DNA of 18,791 bases from Congregibacter sp. (GTDB taxonomy: Bacteria; Pseudomonadota; Gammaproteobacteria; Pseudomonadales; Halieaceae), in the NCBI GenBank assembly GCA_013911345.1, contig JACETJ010000009.1, positions 1 through 18,791 of the forward strand, written 5' to 3'. Numbering within the stretch: position 1 is the stretch's first letter; the number at the start of each line of letters is the position of its first letter. Under the pieces are notes generated by a model. It ran no database searches. It saw only the letters and a list, made by a program, of their open reading frames with translations, and was not told the origin of the DNA. Position numbers and translations under genes: made by a program. This document shows, in pieces, positions 1-13,095 of the stretch.

Positions 1-194
1 ATATCCATCAGAAAGGCCTGAGCCTTGGCTCGATTGCCCTTCCGTACCTGATCCATATAAGAGGGGTAGGCGATACCCGCCAAAATCGCGATGATGGCCA
101 CCACAATCATCAACTCGATCAAGGTAAAACCGCGTTGTCGCGCGATATGCCTGCCCATCGGTCGATGAGTCAAAGTGAATGGCTGCGGTTTCAA
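1..194 (-). CDS. pilE: PilE-type type IV minor pilin (3' part outside window)
   Basis: Only the N-terminal 64 residues or so are present; the gene runs off the left edge. The prepilin signal is RQRG^[16 protein letters not shown], with Gly at -1, Phe at +1 and Glu at +5, followed by the hydrophobic alpha-1 helix and IAYPSY. The next part, [21 protein letters not shown], resembles the PilE branch of minor pilins (NR..AQ..L.D after the helix) more than a major PilA. In that family the prepilin is cleaved and N-methylated by PilD and works in the pilus as a minor subunit. I chose the TTG at 194 because an AGGAGGGG ribosome binding site lies just upstream (198-205). The only nearby ATG, at 158, has no visible site and would give a 10-residue leader rather than 22. 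The gene follows the pilW-like gene and a 59-residue pilin-like ORF on the same strand. Family assignment is strong; the PilE versus PilA choice is an inference from about 50 mature residues. Confidence 0.85.
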
Positions 195-215: not shown

Positions 216-248
216 ATTGCAAAACGCGCTTTCATTGCAAATTGCAAT
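216..248. repeat. Three ATTGCAA repeats upstream of pilE
   Basis: ATTGCAA occurs at 216-222, 234-240 and as the adjoining ATTGCAAT at 241-248. The last two form a near-palindrome, ATTGCAAATTGCAAT, at 234-248. The cluster sits 22 to 54 bases upstream of the pilE start, inside the only non-coding stretch of the pilin cluster (195-298). It could be a regulator binding site, but it does not match a spaced -24/-12 sigma-54 promoter. Its function is unknown. Confidence 0.3.
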
Positions 249-298
249 ACCTATGTGACACTTTACGCTCTTTTTGGGTGGCTACCAGCCCCAAGTTT

Positions 299-478
299 TC
301 ACGAATCTTGGGAATTTGCAACGTTTTGACGGGTTGAATGCCAGTCAGCCAAAGCGAGCTGATACGGCCCTATCAGCGCCATCGTAGTGAGAGTGAGCAA
401 CAGCACCACAAATGTGAGGGCGAAGAACCCATGGCTTTTCTGGAGGCCCCCCATGGATTCGCATCCGTTTGCATTCAT
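299..478 (-). CDS. 59-residue pilin-like micro-ORF in the pilX position
   Basis: A short ORF starts with ATG at 478, 13 bases after the pilW-like stop, and ends with TGA at 299. It encodes 59 residues. Residues 13-17 are QKSHG, followed by the hydrophobic stretch FFALTFVVLLLTLTTMALIG (residues 18-37), then a short polar tail ending NSQDS. A Gly before a hydrophobic helix near the N terminus is the layout of a class III prepilin signal. Thr, not Glu, is at +5, and PilX/GspK-type minor pilins also lack Glu at +5. Full-length PilX is normally about three times longer, so this would be a helix-only PilX or a remnant. An alternative ATG at 454 would give a shorter leader. No strong ribosome binding site is visible, and translation could be coupled to the upstream gene. 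A 7-base inverted repeat (GCTGATA/TATCAGC, 358-377) lies within it. Function is inferred from position and shape only. Confidence 0.5.
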   Translation of the reverse strand: MNANGCESMGGLQKSHGFFALTFVVLLLTLTTMALIGPYQLALADWHSTRQNVANSQDS

Positions 479-491
479 TTAAGAGGACATT

Positions 492-1379
492 TCAGTAAGA
501 GGGAATCAGTAGTCGCACGGCACGCAGAGGCGGCAGATCTATATGCCGACTGAATGGATCAACCGTGAGCGCCAGCTGGATAATGGATGGCGGTGGGTTC
601 TGAGGTGAATCGATGAGGGCCTCATCGCTCCACCCCGTCTGGCCCTGTGCTACTTGGCCAAGAACTTCAAGGCGCTGTATCTGCCATTCGCGGATGCCCG
701 ACACCAACACTTCTGCCTGCGTCCATCGATAAATCGGTCCTCGCGCCAAAACATGCAGTCGTAGCTCCGGCGCGCCCGTGGCGCCCGCAACATCCCGGTG
801 GCTCAGCACCATACGCTCCAACCGCCCCCACGCAGCGCCTTCTGTACAATCCGCAGTGCCAACCACCGAATCCTGCCAATCCACCCACCATGGACCCGTC
901 GGCACCGCCTCGCCGCTCTCTCTCACCTCACACTCAGTAGGCCGCAGACGATAACCCGCAGAGTCATCACAAGTAGCGAAACAGGGATGGATCATTTCCA
1001 GATACAGCGCTTTACCAAGAGCCGAGCCAGGTAAGCACGGTGCGTCGCTCAGTTCGATAATGTCGAGACCGCCCCAGGTTTTTAACGGGCCCGCGGCGTC
1101 GGGAGGCTGGCACGGATCGGCAGGCGCCGGCCACTCAATCACCGCCTTTGAGCCTGAATCGCCACCCATCCAGCCCTGTGGCATCCGAGCACGACTCATG
1201 GCAGCGTCCAGAAATTGATCTATCTGCCCTAAGCGCAGACTTTGATCACTCTTCGCTGCCACCCGCTGAACGCCGCTAATTGCGGAGGCACTGGTGGCAA
1301 CCAGCGCGGCCACCATCGCCAGTACCAGCGCATTGGCAATGAGGCATTCGACCAGAGAGAAGCCAGCTACTGAGCGCAT
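492..1379 (-). CDS. pilW: PilW-like type IV minor pilin
   Basis: The 295-residue protein starts MRSVAG^FSLVECLIANALV: Gly at -1 (residue 6), Phe at +1 and Glu at +5, then a hydrophobic helix to about residue 32. The long, variable C-terminal part with several Cys residues and the large size for a pilin fit the PilW/PilJ class, which in the known systems forms part of the minor-pilin tip complex that primes pilus assembly. It lies in the order expected for pilW, after a PilV-like gene (70-base gap) and before the pilX position. The start ATG at 1379 gives a normal 6-residue leader, although the ribosome binding site (AAGAAG) is weak. No domain beyond the N-terminal methylation helix can be named with certainty, so the symbol rests on position, length and signal peptide. 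Expected location: inner membrane before assembly, then the pilus. Confidence 0.75.
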   Translation of the reverse strand: MRSVAGFSLVECLIANALVLAMVAALVATSASAISGVQRVAAKSDQSLRLGQIDQFLDAAMSRARMPQGWMGGDSGSKAVIEWPAPADPCQPPDAAGPLKTWGGLDIIELSDAPCLPGSALGKALYLEMIHPCFATCDDSAGYRLRPTECEVRESGEAVPTGPWWVDWQDSVVGTADCTEGAAWGRLERMVLSHRDVAGATGAPELRLHVLARGPIYRWTQAEVLVSGIREWQIQRLEVLGQVAQGQTGWSDEALIDSPQNPPPSIIQLALTVDPFSRHIDLPPLRAVRLLIPSY

Positions 1380-1449: not shown

Positions 1450-1842
1450 TCAGTGCAACGTGCTCGCGAGCTGGGCTGATAGTTGATGGCCGTGCGTGTC
1501 GCGCCACGTTAGCCTGAAAACGCCGCCGCTTGTGATCTCGACGCGATGATCGAACAGGTGCTTGAGTCGATCGGCAAGCGTCTGGCAGGTATCGGCAAGC
1601 TGTGGGCGGAGCGGGCCACTGCAGAAGTCCAAGGCTGCGTGCGCATCGCCCATCATATGCGCGAGTGCCGACCATTCTCTCAAAACCGCGGCAGCCGCAT
1701 GGGTTTGGATAATGTGTTGGTGGAGCATTGTGATTTCCGCCGCGAACTGGAGTATGCCGAGCATGCCGGCGAAACCGATGGCACTGGCAATCAGATACTC
1801 GAGCAATACTAGCGAGCCTCCGCGTCGACCATTTCGCTCCAA
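1450..1842 (-). CDS. pilV: PilV-like minor pilin with non-standard prepilin signal
   Basis: The 130-residue protein begins MERNGRRGGSLVLLEYLIAS, followed by AIGFAGMLGILQFAA. The helix with IGFAGMLG and the later REWSALAHMMGDAHAALDF region resemble PilV, which usually has IGLLG and a conserved post-helix segment. The cleavage site is unusual. If cleavage follows Gly9, +1 is Ser and Glu falls at +6. If Glu is kept at +5, the -1 residue is Ser10. The gene overlaps the upstream pilin gene by 34 bases (its ATG lies inside that gene), which suggests coupled translation. It sits between a PilE/FimU-like gene and the pilW-like gene, as pilV does. As a minor pilin it would join the tip complex. The pilin family is fairly sure; the PilV label is supported by order and helix sequence. 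Confidence 0.7.
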   Translation of the reverse strand: MERNGRRGGSLVLLEYLIASAIGFAGMLGILQFAAEITMLHQHIIQTHAAAAVLREWSALAHMMGDAHAALDFCSGPLRPQLADTCQTLADRLKHLFDHRVEITSGGVFRLTWRDTHGHQLSAQLASTLH

Positions 1843-2201
1843 ACGCCTAAGTGATTGAGCTGGAGATCCGGCAGTGAAGGGGTCTTAGCCATCAAGTGCA
1901 ATAAGAACGCCCGATCGTCCGCATCGATCTGGAGACGATAGGCATCCGCGACGCTGGGGGACAACGTGATCAAGCCCGGAAGCTCTACGGGCGTGGCATA
2001 CCGGCCGTGGCGCGACAGGAAATCGCGTTGCGCTATATCGAGGCGCAGCAGCACCCACTTAGCCTCTCTGAGCACTGCCTGATGCTGGTGAGTACGCCAC
2101 GATGGCAAGGCGATGCCGGCCAGCAATGAGATCATCACCAGCACTATCAGGATTTCTATTAATGAGAAGGCCCCCAACCGAGACCGGATGCGCGGCACCA
2201 T
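1809..2201 (-). CDS. PilE/FimU-like minor pilin with Ala at -1 and no cysteines
   Basis: The 130-residue protein starts MVPRIRSRLGA^FSLIEILIV, with the helix continuing through SLLAGIALPSW. Glu is at +5 and Phe at +1, but the residue before the predicted cut is Ala, with Gly at -2. The C-terminal part (AYRLQIDADDRAFLLHLMAK, then D..LNHLGVWSE) matches the PilE-type pilin domain, in which a D..C..L.L...G motif is usual. Here no Cys exists anywhere in the protein, so the usual C-terminal disulfide loop cannot form. I chose the ATG at 2201 because it gives an 11-residue leader; upstream in-frame sequence looks non-coding and contains an inverted repeat. It is first in the minor-pilin cluster, where fimU stands in Pseudomonas, and would be a minor pilus subunit. 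It follows clpB on the same strand after a 111-base gap with a strong hairpin. Confidence 0.75.
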   Translation of the reverse strand: MVPRIRSRLGAFSLIEILIVLVMISLLAGIALPSWRTHQHQAVLREAKWVLLRLDIAQRDFLSRHGRYATPVELPGLITLSPSVADAYRLQIDADDRAFLLHLMAKTPSLPDLQLNHLGVWSEMVDAEAR

Positions 2202-2312: not shown

Positions 2313-4928
2313 CTACGCGGCTTCCGAGACAGCGGCCGCCTTGCTGAAAGCAAACTCGCCTCTCTCCAGCCTGACCTCGACCGTATCGCCCGGAGCGAAC
2401 GCACCAGCCAATATTCCTTCGGCCAGCGGGTTCTCGATCAATCGTTGCATGGCGCGCTTGAGTGGTCGCGCACCGTAGACCGGGTCGAAGCCCTCATCGG
2501 CCAGATGCGACATCACCTCTGCATTCACAGACAGCGCCAGCGACCGATCGGCAAGTCGCGCCCTCACTGCAGCCAGCTGTAGCTCGGCAATATCGGCGAT
2601 GTGGGAGGCGTCCAGCGCGTGGAACACCACTGACTCATCAATTCGATTGAGCAGTTCTGGCGCGAAGTGCATTGCCACATCGGCCATCACTTTTGCCTCA
2701 ATGGTCGCCTTCATCGCGCCGCTGTCAGCTTTGGCGGCTTGTGGCTCAAATGCCTCCCGAAAGTGCTCTGAACCCAGGTTCGACGTCATCACCACCACCG
2801 TATTGCGAAAATCCACGGTGCGGCCCTGCCCATCGGTCAGCCGACCATCCTCAAGAACCTGGAGCAAAATATTGAAGACATCCTTATGGGCCTTTTCGAC
2901 CTCATCAAGGAGCAGCAGCGAGTAGGGTCGGCGGCGCACTGCTTCAGTGAGGTAGCCACCCTCTTCGTAGCCCACGTAGCCAGGGGGTGCGCCGATCAAG
3001 CGCGCAACAGAGTGTTGCTCCATGAACTCTGACATGTCGATGCGCACCATCGCCTGCTCGCTGTCAAACAGATAATCGGCCAGCGCCTTGCACAGTTCGG
3101 TCTTGCCCACACCCGTCGGCCCCAAGAATAGAAATGAGCCATTGGGTCGCTGTGGGTCTGCCAATCCGGCCCGGGCACGACGTACGGCGTTCGACACGGC
3201 CACCACAGCTTCTTGCTGTCCCACCACCCGCTCGTGCAGCGCTGCCTCCATGTGTAACAGTTTTTCTCTGTCTCCCTCGAGCATCTTGGCAATCGGAACA
3301 CCGGTCCACTTAGAGACCACCTCGGCGACCTCCTCCTCGGTCACGCGCGATCGGAGAAGAGTCGGCTCCGGCTGATCCTCAGCGGACGCCGCCTGAAGTC
3401 GGCGCTCCAGATCGGGCAGCAGCCCATGCTGAATCTCCGACATCCCAGCCAGGTCTCCTGCGCGGCGAGCAACCTCTAAATCCAGCTTGGCCTGCTCAAT
3501 GTCGCTTTTTATCTGAGTTGCTCCCTGCACCGCCGCCTTCTCGGCCAGCCACACTTCCTCAAGGTCAGCGTACTCCCGCTCGATCACCTCAATCTGCTCA
3601 TCGAGCTGATTCAGCTCCTTCTCTGCAGCGGCGGAATCCTCTTTTTTCACGGCTTCACGTTCAATCTTGAGCTGAATCAAGCGCCGCTCGAGGCGGTCCA
3701 TGGACTCGGGCTTCGAATCGATCTCCATCCTGATGCGACTGCCCGCCTCATCGATCAGATCAATCGCTTTGTCAGGCAGTTGCCGGTCTGTGATGTATCG
3801 CTGGCTGAGTCTTGCCGCCGCAATAATGGCGCTGTCGCTGATATCGACGCTGTGATGCACCTCGTAACGCTCTTTTAGCCCGCGCAGAATGGCAATGGTG
3901 TCCTCCTCGCTGGGCTCATCCACCAGCACCTTCTGGAAACGCCGCTCCAGCGCAGCATCTTTCTCGACGTACTGCCGATACTCGTTCAACGTTGTGGCGC
4001 CGACACAGTGGAGTTCACCGCGGGCCAGCGCCGGCTTCAGCATATTGCCTGCGTCCATCGACCCCTCTGCCTTGCCAGCACCCACCATCGTGTGCAGCTC
4101 ATCGACAAATAGAATGATGCGGCCTTCCTCTTTGCCCAGTGCGTTCAGCACCGCCTTCAGCCGCTCTTCAAAATCTCCACGGAATTTCGCGCCTGCCAAC
4201 AGCGCGCCCAGATCCAGCGCCAAAATCCGCTTGTTCTTAAGCCCTTCTGGCACTTCACCGTTAACCACCCGTTGCGCCAAGCCCTCAACGATTGCGGTCT
4301 TGCCCACACCAGGCTCACCGATCAACACCGGATTGTTTTTGGTTCTTCGCTGAAGCACTTGAATAGTGCGACGAATCTCCTCGTCTCTGCCAATCACGGG
4401 GTCCAGCTCGCCAGCCTCGGCGCGCGCGGTCAGGTCCACCGTATATTTCTCCAGCGCCTGACGCGTTTCCTCCGATTCAGCGGTACTGACCGACTCTCCC
4501 CCTCGCGCTTGATCCACAGCTTGAGAGAGAGTCTCGACAGAGATACCCGCGTCCTTCATTAAAGGGGCTGTCGACGATGCATCGAGCATCGCGAGCAAGA
4601 CTGTATCCGTGGAAATGTAGGCATCCTCCGCCTGCTGCGACAATTTATCGGCGCGGTTCAAGAGTCGCTGGGTCTCCTGACTGATATGAATATCCTCAGC
4701 GCCTGAAACCGTGGGCACACCGTCCAATGCAACATCTACCGCGCGTTGTAACGACTCAGTGTCTGCGCCGGCGGCCCGCAACAGGGCGTGGCAAGGTGAC
4801 CCCGTTTGGCCCAGCATGGCTTTGAGGATATGCACTGGCTCAATAAAAGGGTGATCCCGCCCTACAGCTATGGATTGCGCCTCTCCGAGGGCCGCCTGTA
4901 AAGAATGCGTCAGCTTATCCATGCGCAT
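2313..4928 (-). CDS. clpB: ClpB protein disaggregase (Hsp100 AAA+ chaperone)
   Basis: The 871-residue protein is close to the family length and aligns across its length with ClpB. It has an N domain (1-145), first AAA+ module with Walker A GEPGVGKT (204-211) and Walker B ILFVDE (272-277), a coiled-coil middle domain rich in Glu/Lys/Ala, a second AAA+ module with GPTGVGKTE, pore loop GYVGYEEGG and the [11 protein letters not shown]alker B, and a C-terminal VYGARPLKR box. ClpB is a cytosolic ring hexamer that, with DnaK, pulls proteins out of aggregates after heat stress. I chose the ATG at 4928 ([11 protein letters not shown]), which matches the known N terminus and has AAGGAG 6 bases upstream. 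An in-frame ATG at 5003 is rejected because it lies upstream of the likely transcription start. The first pore loop reads KFRGDFEE, with Phe249 where ClpB usually has Tyr. A sigma-32-type promoter precedes the gene. Confidence 0.97.
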
Positions 4929-4943
4929 CGCTCTCTCCTTGTT

Positions 4944-4956
4944 CCCGCTTTGCGGG
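4944..4956 (-). promoter_or_regulatory. Small GC hairpin in the clpB leader next to the ribosome binding site
   Basis: The minus strand reads CCCGC-AAA-GCGGG, a perfect 5-base-pair stem with a 3-base loop. It ends 3 bases before the AAGGAG ribosome binding site (4935-4940) of clpB. With transcription starting near 4969, the hairpin would occupy the middle of a leader of about 40 bases. It could stabilise the mRNA or affect ribosome access. A role in temperature response is only a possibility. Confidence 0.4.
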
Positions 4957-4975
4957 TCAGCTTTGTCTAAGAGAG

Positions 4976-5004
4976 ATATTGGGGGTCTAAACCCCCTTTT
5001 CAAG
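4976..5004 (-). promoter_or_regulatory. Heat-shock (sigma-32, RpoH) promoter of clpB
   Basis: On the minus strand CTTGAAA (4998-5004) and CCCCAATAT (4976-4984) are separated by 13 bases. This is a near-perfect match to the RpoH consensus (CTTGAAA, 11-16 bases, CCCCATNT). The predicted start of transcription is near 4969, giving a leader of about 40 bases before the clpB ATG at 4928. ClpB is a classical RpoH target in proteobacteria. The spacer and -10 together contain the palindrome GGGGGT-TTAG-ACCCCC (4981-4996). Confidence 0.85.
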
Positions 5005-9545: not shown

Positions 9546-11189
9546 ATGGCGATTAACCACCCCGCCGTCACTGGCAAAGCAACAAAGCGAACAATGGCTC
9601 CGCGTCGTGCGGGTGCCGAGGTCGCCAAGTTGCTGTCCCTCTACAACGTCTATCGTGCGGTGCTGGGCATCGTGATCCTGACCCTTGGACTCGCCGACGC
9701 TACCCGGCTCACCAAAATTGAGGGGTATCACGCCGGACTCATCTGGCTTGCTGTGATCTGGCTGACCAGCGCGGTGCTGCTGTTCTGGCAGGTCAGGTTC
9801 ATCGCCAGCAAGGCAGACGGCGGCCCCTTGGGGGTCATCCTTTTTGATCTGGTAATGATCGCGTTTCTAGTGAGACTCGGCCAGCCACTGGGACCGGGGC
9901 TCCCTCTCCTTTATCTGCTCACAGTAGCCGCCGCCGCCTTGCTGATCTCCAATCGCATCACGGCGACTGCTGTGGCGGCGTTGGCAACCATCGCGATTCT
10001 GTCCGATAGCACATATCAACTCCAGCAAGGCATGATCGATGCCAACGGCATGTTGTCGGCAGGGCTACTAGGGTCGTTAATCTTTTTGATTTCACTGCTC
10101 TTGCAGCAGATCGCCGGCAAAATGAAGACCATAGAAGAACTGGCTGATGCAGCAACAACCCAGGTCGCAACGTTAGAAGAGCTGAACGAGCAGGTGATTG
10201 CACATATGACAACCGGCGTATGCCGGGTTTCGGCTGACAATCGTGTCACTGCTATCAATCAGGCGGCTGCTCAGTTGCTAGATCTGCCGAGAGCCGGTAT
10301 CTCAATTCCTGTTGATCGGCTCCACAGCACCCTAGCCGAACACATTCATCTCTGGCAGTCAGGCCAGCACACGATCGCGAGACCTTTCAAAGTTCACCCG
10401 GAGGGTAAGCCACTGCTCCCCGAGCTCGTCCGTATCGGGCATGATTTTGAACCAGAGACTTTGCTCTTCGTGGAGGACTACACCCCCATCACCGAGGCCG
10501 CTCAGACACTGAAGCTCAATGCTCTGGGTAAGCTGACCGCCAGCATCGCCCACGAAATCCGTAACCCCCTCGCGGCGATCAGCCACGCCTCTCAGCTACT
10601 GGATGAGAGCATCGATGATCCATCCGAGCACAAGGCGCTGCGAGATATCATTTTCACCAACACCCAGCGGGTCAATGAGATCATCGAGAATGTGCTGCAA
10701 CTCTCGCGTCGCGAAGAGGCGAGGCAGGAACCTCTAGACTTGTTGGCCTGGCTTCATCTTTTCGTCCCTGAGTATGAGCAGGGTCAAACCCATCCCAACT
10801 GTGTGAAGCTGTCGGCGCCCGCGCCAGTGGGCCAGATTGTGTTTGATGCGGGTAATTTGCGCCGGGTGCTGACTAATTTGCTGGATAACGGCATCCGGCA
10901 CGCGGGCGAGCATACTGGGCAATTTACTGTCACACTTGCGTTGACAAAAGATGAGCTGACCAATCGGGCGCACATGGATGTGATTGACGCGGGGACCGGG
11001 GTGCCAGAAACCCTGCTGGACCGTCTCTTTGAACCTTTTTTTACGACTTCGCCAACCGGTAGCGGATTGGGTTTATATCTGTGCCGCGAACTGTGCGATA
11101 GCAATGGTGCAACCCTGACCTACGATCGCACACCAGAAGGCCAATCCCGTTTCAGGGTATCCGTTCCGTTGCAAGGCTTAACAAAGTGA
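9546..11189 (+). CDS. pilS: Type IV pilus sensor histidine kinase PilS
   Basis: The 547-residue protein has about six hydrophobic membrane segments between residues 36 and 190, a PAS-like cytosolic domain (about 215-315, with VSADNRVTAINQAAAQLL), the HisKA dimerisation domain with phospho-acceptor His336 (ASIAHEIRNPLAAISHASQL), and the ATPase domain with the N box (NLLDNGIRHAG, Asn448), DAGTGVP and GSGLGLYLC. This is the standard PilS layout: an inner-membrane kinase that phosphorylates PilR and sets pilin expression. The start is uncertain: ATG at 9546 has no ribosome binding site, and an ATG at 9594 would remove 16 residues without losing any membrane helix. The gene overlaps pilR by 4 bases (GTGA), so the two are co-transcribed. 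It does not sit next to a full minor-pilin cluster; fimT lies just beyond pilR. Confidence 0.95.
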   Translation: MAINHPAVTGKATKRTMAPRRAGAEVAKLLSLYNVYRAVLGIVILTLGLADATRLTKIEGYHAGLIWLAVIWLTSAVLLFWQVRFIASKADGGPLGVILFDLVMIAFLVRLGQPLGPGLPLLYLLTVAAAALLISNRITATAVAALATIAILSDSTYQLQQGMIDANGMLSAGLLGSLIFLISLLLQQIAGKMKTIEELADAATTQVATLEELNEQVIAHMTTGVCRVSADNRVTAINQAAAQLLDLPRAGISIPVDRLHSTLAEHIHLWQSGQHTIARPFKVHPEGKPLLPELVRIGHDFEPETLLFVEDYTPITEAAQTLKLNALGKLTASIAHEIRNPLAAISHASQLLDESIDDPSEHKALRDIIFTNTQRVNEIIENVLQLSRREEARQEPLDLLAWLHLFVPEYEQGQTHPNCVKLSAPAPVGQIVFDAGNLRRVLTNLLDNGIRHAGEHTGQFTVTLALTKDELTNRAHMDVIDAGTGVPETLLDRLFEPFFTTSPTGSGLGLYLCRELCDSNGATLTYDRTPEGQSRFRVSVPLQGLTK

Positions 11190-12556
11190 GTCGGCCTTGC
11201 ATATTGCTGGTTGATGACGAACCAGACTTGCTGACGCTGTTAAAAATGACGCTGTCTCGCATGGAGCTAGATACCATCACCGCAGGGACGCTGGCTGAGG
11301 CGCGCGAGGCCCTGACCAAACGTCAACCTGACCTCTGCCTCACGGACATGAAGCTCCCGGACGGCAATGGCCTCGACTTAATTGCCGAGATACAACAGCG
11401 TTATCCCGAGCTGCCTGTCGCCATGATGACAGCGCATGGCAGCGTAGAGACCGCCATTGAGGCCTTGAAATTGGGCGCGTTTGATTTCGTCAGTAAACCC
11501 GTCGCGCTGGATCGTTTGCGCGACCTCGTCACCCAGGCATTGAAGGTCAGTGCTGCGCCGAATTCACCGGCTAACGATATGCTCATTGGTGAGACGCCTG
11601 TCATGGCGACCCTCAAACGCGACATACACCGACTATCGCGGAGTCAGGCGCCAGTCCACATTCACGGCGAATCGGGGGTCGGCAAAGAGGTAGTCGCAAG
11701 ACTCATCCACGAGTCAGGTCCCCGGGCAGCGGGGCCATTTCTGGCAGTGAACTGCGGGGCTATTCCTGCTGATCTGGTTGAAAGTGAGTTGTTTGGACAT
11801 CGCAAAGGCGCTTTCACGGGGGCTACGGCAGACAAACCCGGCCTGTTTCAGGCCGCCGATGGCGGCACGCTGCTCCTGGATGAGATTGCAGATCTGCCGC
11901 TACCCGTTCAGGTCAAGCTCCTTAGGGCAATTCAGGAGAAAGCCGTGCGCCCGATTGGCGCGCAGAAAGAAACCTCGGTCGATGTCAGGCTCATGAGTGC
12001 TACGCACAAAAATCTATTGGATGAGGTGCGCAGTGGGCGTTTTCGCGACGATTTATATTATCGGGTCAATGTGATTGACCTCATGGTGCCGCCGCTGAGG
12101 AATCGTCGGGCAGACATTCCACTGATTGCCAATCACATCCTCAGGCAAATGGCGCAGAGCGCCGATGGCCGGGCACTCAGACTGAGCGATCGCGCCGCAG
12201 CGCAACTGATGACCCATGATTTCCCGGGCAATATCCGCGAACTGGAAAATATCCTCGCCCGATCAGCCGCACTACTAGATGGTCATATCATCGATACGGG
12301 CAATCTAGAGCTCGGTGATGTAGCCGGCTCAAACCGTATAGACCAACAGCCTGCCGATGAGGCTGTGACAGGCTCAGCGCAAGACTTACCAAACGCGACC
12401 AACGACCTGGACGGCTACCTTGCCAATATTGAGAGAACCGTGATCGAGGCGGCGCTGCAAGCACACCGATGGAACCGCACAGCCACCGCCAAGTCGCTGG
12501 GCATCACTCTGCGGAGTCTTCGTTACCGGCTGAAGAAACTGGGGATCGAAGACTAA
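11186..12556 (+). CDS. pilR: Type IV pilus response regulator PilR, sigma-54 activator
   Basis: The 456-residue NtrC-family regulator has a receiver domain with Asp10/Asp11, phospho-acceptor Asp54 (LTDMKLPDG), Thr82 and Lys104. The AAA+ domain has Walker A GESGVGKE (161-168), the sigma-54 contact loop GAFTGA (208-213), Walker B TLLLDE and the DFPGNIRELEN segment. A C-terminal Fis-type helix-turn-helix follows (about 428-453, NRTATAKSLGITLRSLRYRL). PilR activates sigma-54 promoters, classically pilA, when phosphorylated by PilS. The start is GTG at 11186, in a GTGA overlap with the pilS stop, with AAGG 9 bases upstream. It is convergent with fimT, whose stop lies 8 bases downstream. No good -24/-12 target promoter was found in this window, so the main pilin target is probably elsewhere. 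Confidence 0.95.
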   Translation: MSRPCILLVDDEPDLLTLLKMTLSRMELDTITAGTLAEAREALTKRQPDLCLTDMKLPDGNGLDLIAEIQQRYPELPVAMMTAHGSVETAIEALKLGAFDFVSKPVALDRLRDLVTQALKVSAAPNSPANDMLIGETPVMATLKRDIHRLSRSQAPVHIHGESGVGKEVVARLIHESGPRAAGPFLAVNCGAIPADLVESELFGHRKGAFTGATADKPGLFQAADGGTLLLDEIADLPLPVQVKLLRAIQEKAVRPIGAQKETSVDVRLMSATHKNLLDEVRSGRFRDDLYYRVNVIDLMVPPLRNRRADIPLIANHILRQMAQSADGRALRLSDRAAAQLMTHDFPGNIRELENILARSAALLDGHIIDTGNLELGDVAGSNRIDQQPADEAVTGSAQDLPNATNDLDGYLANIERTVIEAALQAHRWNRTATAKSLGITLRSLRYRLKKLGIED

Positions 12557-12564
12557 TTGCTGTT

Positions 12565-13095
12565 TCACCCAGGGCAGGTTCCCCACTGGGAAACCAGACG
12601 CGGGCGGCCCAAGCGATTTGTCACCACCGACCAGTTTTGACTCAGCGCGCACACCGAGAGCGTGAGGTTGCGGCTGCCCAGACCACGCTGATCCCATCGC
12701 AGCTCGCCGGTGACCGCTCGTAACCCACTGCGATCAGTGACTGTCACACCCTGAACCGGCTGCCAAACTCGCATCAGCTCAAGACCCTCAGCTGTCTCCG
12801 CCATCGCGGCGATTTGCTCGCCAAAATGGCCTGCGCAGGAAGGCCTGCCGGCCAAGATGTGACTGACAGGGCAGAGAATCACGGGCATGCCCTCCATTTG
12901 CGCTTTGGTGCGGGCGAACTGCATGGCAGCGTAGAGCTGCAGCGCGCCGGCTTTAGCCCGCGCCGTAGCGAGCTGATCTCTGAATGATGGCAGCGCCACC
13001 GCCAACATTATCGCGATAATGGCAATGCTCACCAGGCACTCGACTAGCGTCAGGCCACTTTGGCTCAGGGGAACTCGTCGATAAGCGCGCATCAT
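12565..13095 (-). CDS. fimT: FimT/GspH-family minor pseudopilin
   Basis: The 176-residue protein begins MMRAYRRVPLSQSG^LTLVECLVSI, with Gly14 before the cut, Leu at +1 and Glu at +5, and a helix to IMLAVALPSF. The body fits GspH/FimT pseudopilins: ARAKAGALQLYAAMQFARTKAQMEG, then VILCPV and a C-terminal SVCALSQNW...GRPRL segment. Four Cys residues follow the helix (two near 80-92, two late). Start ATG at 13095 has AAGG 7 bases upstream; the next ATG at 13092 is also possible. Known FimT proteins are minor pilus parts, some linked to DNA binding during natural transformation. The gene lies 134 bases downstream of ispH on the same strand and is convergent with pilR, and no other minor pilin gene follows it, unlike the clustered arrangement in Pseudomonas. 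Confidence 0.85.
   Translation of the reverse strand: MMRAYRRVPLSQSGLTLVECLVSIAIIAIMLAVALPSFRDQLATARAKAGALQLYAAMQFARTKAQMEGMPVILCPVSHILAGRPSCAGHFGEQIAAMAETAEGLELMRVWQPVQGVTVTDRSGLRAVTGELRWDQRGLGSRNLTLSVCALSQNWSVVTNRLGRPRLVSQWGTCPG

Follow-up and report, generated by a model that had tools for sequence, protein, structure and literature searches.

The window, that is, the whole stretch of Congregibacter sp. DNA analysed here (18,791 nucleotides), carries on its minus strand an operon-like run of genes in the order clpB, fimU', pilV', pilW', a short ORF and pilE. The presence of one short ORF in the operon direction between the pilW-like stop and pilE, claimed in the initial annotation, was confirmed. 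Its 59-codon frame opens with ATG at 478 and closes with a stop at 301-299; 13 bases separate its start from the pilW-like stop (494-492), and 140 bases lie between its end and the probable pilE start (ATG 158). A 51-residue form, beginning at an in-frame ATG at 454, matches the start of an identical database protein (P0001). Since 122 ORFs in the window reach 50 aa or more, the length of this ORF is by itself weak evidence, and the case rests on conservation. The features considered are the following.

299..478, minus strand: headless minor-pilin-like ORF in the K/PilX slot, 59 aa (51 aa from the alternative ATG)
428..430, minus strand: Gly-1 codon, predicted prepilin-peptidase site SHG/FFA; the sole invariant column of 125 aligned sequences
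302..427, minus strand: predicted mature chain of 42 residues (about 21 hydrophobic, Pro-Tyr-Gln, short polar tail), from the translation and family alignments
492..1379, minus strand: pilW' (GspJ-like), 295 aa, prepilin leader MRSVAG, Glu5
1450..1809, minus strand: pilV' (I slot), leaderless in relatives; GTA (1809-1807) at the start position in the window, next codon TTG
1809..2201, minus strand: fimU' (H slot), chosen ATG 2201 (GTG 2267 in the ORF listing); Ala at -1, Glu5
3..158, minus strand: N-terminal part of pilE, running off the window, chosen ATG 158 (GTG 212 in the ORF listing); N_methyl match, E 6.6e-12
2313..5003, minus strand: clpB, the upstream neighbour in the window and in relatives whose locus extends that far
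234..306, no strand: conserved DNA blocks (290-306, 256-275, 234-247) around the ORF stop and upstream of pilE, from an alignment of 6 loci

In the predicted product, a leader with QKSHG at its end precedes some 21 hydrophobic residues and a further 21 or so, which bears out the earlier description of a Gly followed by a hydrophobic helix and a short remainder. The absence of Glu at +5 also stood: Thr occupies this position in the window, and Glu occurs there in 0 of 125 aligned sequences and 0 of 35 genome copies.

Conservation in Halieaceae

A single-sequence search returned 22 homologues of 47-70 aa and a family-profile protein search 154, of which 120 were listed; because the latter admitted only candidates of 0.55-1.75 times the query length (7992 scored), its lengths are biased, and the genome search was run with no length limit. 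A 25-member profile (E 0.01) detected the ORF in 34 of 140 family genomes. A pilW' counterpart, as read from the pilW' search, is present in 37 of the 140. In that search, 63 genomes passed E 1e-6; 26 of them, with weak (at most 48.9 bits) and mostly N-terminal matches, were assumed to hold ordinary PilW, not individually checked, and omitted, while G090 and G111 (about 50-55 bits) were kept because PilV' adjoins. The 38th set-carrying genome, G093, contributes PilV' alone, located at the edge of a contig.

In 33 of the 34 genomes the ORF lies downstream of pilW' on one contig, and in G087 the two are on separate contigs. In G111 the slot is filled by a short ORF (L176) that the profile missed, and in G009 and G090 the contig stops short of the slot, which places them outside the 35 testable genomes. 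In all 35, a short ORF occupies the slot, with 33-59 residues after Gly-1. The initial annotation had stated that its reading would fall if the ORF were not conserved in related genomes or if frames were disrupted there; conservation is complete across the testable set, and frame-disrupting changes were found in none, except that in G013 (L085) the open frame before Gly-1 offers no ATG, GTG or TTG. The assembly of G013 may be poor, because its pilW' is broken too. The hallmark of a type IV pilin, a Gly-ended leader before a hydrophobic helix, is seen throughout, with the start codon missing in one of 35 copies; in G113 (L177) the nearest usual start is 33 codons from Gly-1, so that a leader of at least 33 residues is needed there. 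Of the 125 aligned sequences (the window ORF plus 124 proteins from databases), all but one end 33-50 residues after Gly-1; the exception, P0059, lies on a short contig and has 93. Gly-1 itself is kept in all 125.

An order-level search of 390 genomes, sampled from a larger group, gave six matches: four were in genomes already identified, one (L134) fell on the beginning of a PilX-like protein of full length, and one (L135) on an ORF unrelated to the family. On this sample, the ORF is likely restricted to Halieaceae. Weak matches at L101, at L102 (the GspK-like N-terminus of a protein encoded next to genes for type II secretion) and at L104 were judged spurious by eye, and none recurred in the 140-genome profile search; G073 and G076 each contain one additional weak profile match elsewhere in the genome. 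The neighbouring pgeF product (255 aa) reaches up to 68% identity to Luminiphilus and other Halieaceae assemblies (L001-L014), which makes a Halieaceae source very probable. In two Halieaceae loci (L006, L007), clpB is followed almost directly by an ilvB-like gene and the minor-pilin set is absent. Among the matches listed, members of the ORF family are annotated as 'hypothetical protein', with one permease name and one UniRef 'Cell division p...'; annotation gives no hint, because the ORF and pilV' are small or without the usual marks.

Purifying selection and the DNA around the stop codon

The proposed dN/dS comparison was carried out by the Nei-Gojobori method on 27 within-group pairs, which are non-independent, using the 34 codons that start at Gly-1, and shows purifying selection on the ORF. 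Pooled pS was 0.54 and pooled pN 0.12, pS exceeded pN in 27 of 27 pairs, and the ratio ranged from 0.00 to 0.35 in the 21 pairs with computable dS (six were saturated). Neither a gene remnant nor a pure DNA signal would be expected to combine low pN with high pS.

The DNA around the stop codon is conserved as well. The core of the 290-306 block recurs in 6 of 6 loci and the 256-275 and 234-247 blocks in 5 of 6, with some changes; together they cross the ORF stop toward pilE and may belong to the pilE promoter region. Because of this overlap the last ORF codons need caution, and it could be argued that the ORF's conservation merely reflects promoter signals at its 3' end, the more so as the L012 protein ends four codons sooner, though its DNA continues alike. 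Such signals would account for the last codons at most, however, and not for the substitution pattern in the 34 codons from Gly-1; besides, several family members precede ilvB rather than pilE. We regard this explanation as exceedingly improbable.

Partner genes of the set

FimU' has an N_methyl match (E 4.5e-4) just below the family cut-off; its -1 residue is Ala in the window, L012 and L190, and Gly in L130, L188 and L191. The structure model of PilW' has a GspJ-like fold, with EpsJ as the top Foldseek match (E 0.1), and the model of PilV' gave no clear fold match to GspI; in Foldseek, neither model produced an E below 0.001. PilW' carries Gly or Ala in place of Glu5 in some lineages (L099, L129, L130, L087), and pilW' is broken by frameshifts or a stop in L012, L013 and L087, through decay or assembly error.

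PilV' also departs from the usual pattern, as it appears to lack a type III signal peptide. ATG or GTG immediately precedes the helix start ([LWM][ILVF][DE]) in 19 of 25 pilV' loci (a 26th, L097, is cut and was left out), five further loci have ATG, GTG or TTG at most 4 codons before the acidic residue, and the window has GTA. An upstream stop leaves at most 8 codons in eleven loci (L003 and L086 being one genome), hence no room for a leader, and all 31 database homologues at E 1e-5 begin at the helix Met (M-L-L-[DE] or similar). At L084 and a few other loci, a leader ending in Ala could precede the helix. The ten distinct ordinary PilV sequences from the clade that served as a control each carry Gly-1, preceded by an open stretch resembling a leader; since the search pattern called for FTLIEVLVT and, at -1, one of Gly, Ala, Ser and Pro, this shows the leader and Gly-1, not Glu5 independently. 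That the ORF and PilV' are both unusual within one set suggests that assembly of the complex departs from the textbook.

PilB was over the family cut-off in 21 of the 38 set-carrying genomes, many of whose assemblies are fragmented. A Fisher comparison with genomes lacking the set (21/38 versus 3/18, p 0.009) was given no weight; its comparison group was picked by genome number, and of the 90 genomes that passed the PilB cut-off it took in 89. Elsewhere in the window, at 9546-13095, genes were noted for a sensor kinase and for an NtrC-like regulator; judged by eye, the two resemble PilS/PilR. Not far from them, and close to ispH, is a separate pilin of FimT type with a GspH match.

Class assignment and alternative readings

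In the current view, the growing filament is capped by K-class pilins such as PilX, which also carry PilY1, and to our knowledge all known PilX proteins possess heads. The ORF shares with PilX/GspK its place as the fourth gene after H-, I- and J-class pilins (J assigned by fold, the other two solely from position and helix), a Gly-ended leader and a hydrophobic helix without Glu5. It differs in that the stop codon, 33-59 residues after Gly-1 in all 35 genomes, leaves no large, lollipop-like head, as the initial annotation had supposed, and in that its set is without a pilY1 of its own. PilX_N (PF14341) matched neither the window ORF nor any of 25 members; among the 38 set-carrying genomes it gave 12 matches, none at the ORF. 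In searches against Pfam and NCBIfam the window ORF belonged to no family, while family members gave scattered weak matches to 9 Pfam families (best DUF7327, E 0.004) and weak matches to 4 NCBIfam families, including two members against a prepilin model (E 0.0045). A PDB sequence search with the family profile returned six sequences at E 0.5-2.6 (MshA at E 1), none convincing. In G072 and G074, a longer K-like protein (L260, L261) begins Gly-Tyr-Val-Thr-Thr, like some headless members, and is a possible source of the family.

The short major pilin of Geobacter and the Flp pilins carry Glu5, which the ORF lacks, and they are major subunits, whereas the ORF sits in a minor-pilin set. The likeness is in size: helix-only pilins are already described as major subunits, the Geobacter chain being almost only an N-terminal helix (PMC4471445, PMC10191384) and the Flp pilins of Tad (T4c) very short and possibly helix only (PMC4471445). 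Flp belongs to another system, and no Flp family appears among the Pfam or NCBIfam matches of the ORF. Several FimU-PilV-PilW-PilX sets per genome are described for Myxococcus xanthus, yet there each cluster brings its own PilY1, and every one of the 12 minor pilins bears a type III signal peptide (PMC7541494). A literature search of titles and abstract openings found neither a headless K-class pilin nor a leaderless minor pilin described.

The earlier alternative that the ORF is a decayed pilX, a full-length gene that lost its head, fits its position, and the loss would be tolerable because relatives retain full-length PilX elsewhere; the missing usual start codon in G013 also points this way. 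These full-length genes lie in a separate set downstream or elsewhere, not at the ORF position, where one in sister strains would, according to the initial annotation, have refuted its reading. Shortness in every testable genome, pS above pN in every pair and an invariant Gly-1 make decay highly improbable. A split pilin, in which the ORF supplies the helix and a separate protein the head, has a precedent in the Geobacter major pilin (PMC10191384), but no conserved head ORF was seen by eye in the ORF neighbourhood, where the 3' neighbour is either pilE, together with the ordinary set, or ilvB, except in one group with different genes or genes of opposite orientation; we consider it improbable.

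Rather unlikely, though to be taken more seriously, is a small membrane protein that remains in the inner membrane, whether or not PilD processes it, and regulates the assembly of pili without joining the filament. Its size and single helix would suit such a role, and polymerisation of the set may be atypical, given the leaderless PilV' and the loss of Glu5 from PilW' in some lineages. The invariant Gly-1, however, suggests processing, and both the slot and the helix match a K-class pilin.

The reading that we favour, with moderate confidence, is that the ORF is a protein-coding gene for a headless GspK/PilX-class minor pilin, closing a second FimU-PilV-PilW-X set in part of Halieaceae, and that its helix primes a filament with PilW' at the tip. 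The headless helix-only pilus subunit offered by the initial annotation thus fits the data, its processing and incorporation into a pilus being predictions. The prepilin would insert into the inner membrane and be cleaved by PilD after Gly-1; the mature helix of 33-59 residues without Glu5 would then become the first filament subunit, packed against the helices of PilW' and PilV'. In published work, assembly begins with the minor pilins H, I, J and K, which make up the tip, and a subunit lacking Glu5 serves as the cap (PMC10191384); the predicted tip in Kingella consists of PilW, PilX and PilV with bulky heads (PMC12607826). A helix-only K may keep the membrane contact and lose the PilY1 surface; with neither a K head nor pilY1 in the set, the tip is proposed to expose the PilW' head rather than PilY1. 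The outcome would be a second kind of pilus-initiation complex alongside the ordinary one. Against this, a headless K might not prime at all, given the heads of known PilX and the finding, in M. xanthus, that PilY1.3 failed to accumulate without PilX3 (PMC7541494). Further points against the favoured reading are the lack of a PilX_N match, the scattered and weak Pfam and NCBIfam matches, the start codons of G013 and G113, and PilB in only 21 of the 38 set-carrying genomes, many of them fragmented.

More tentatively, and less probably than not, both oddities may belong to one stripped-down initiation complex, in which a helix-only K and a leaderless I (fMet start, acidic residue at 4 or 5) nucleate PilW'-headed, PilY1-free pili. 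If true, initiation would require neither a K head nor PilD processing of I. A natural, conserved headless K would offer a direct test of whether the helix alone starts a pilus, and the leaderless PilV' poses the same question for prepilin processing.
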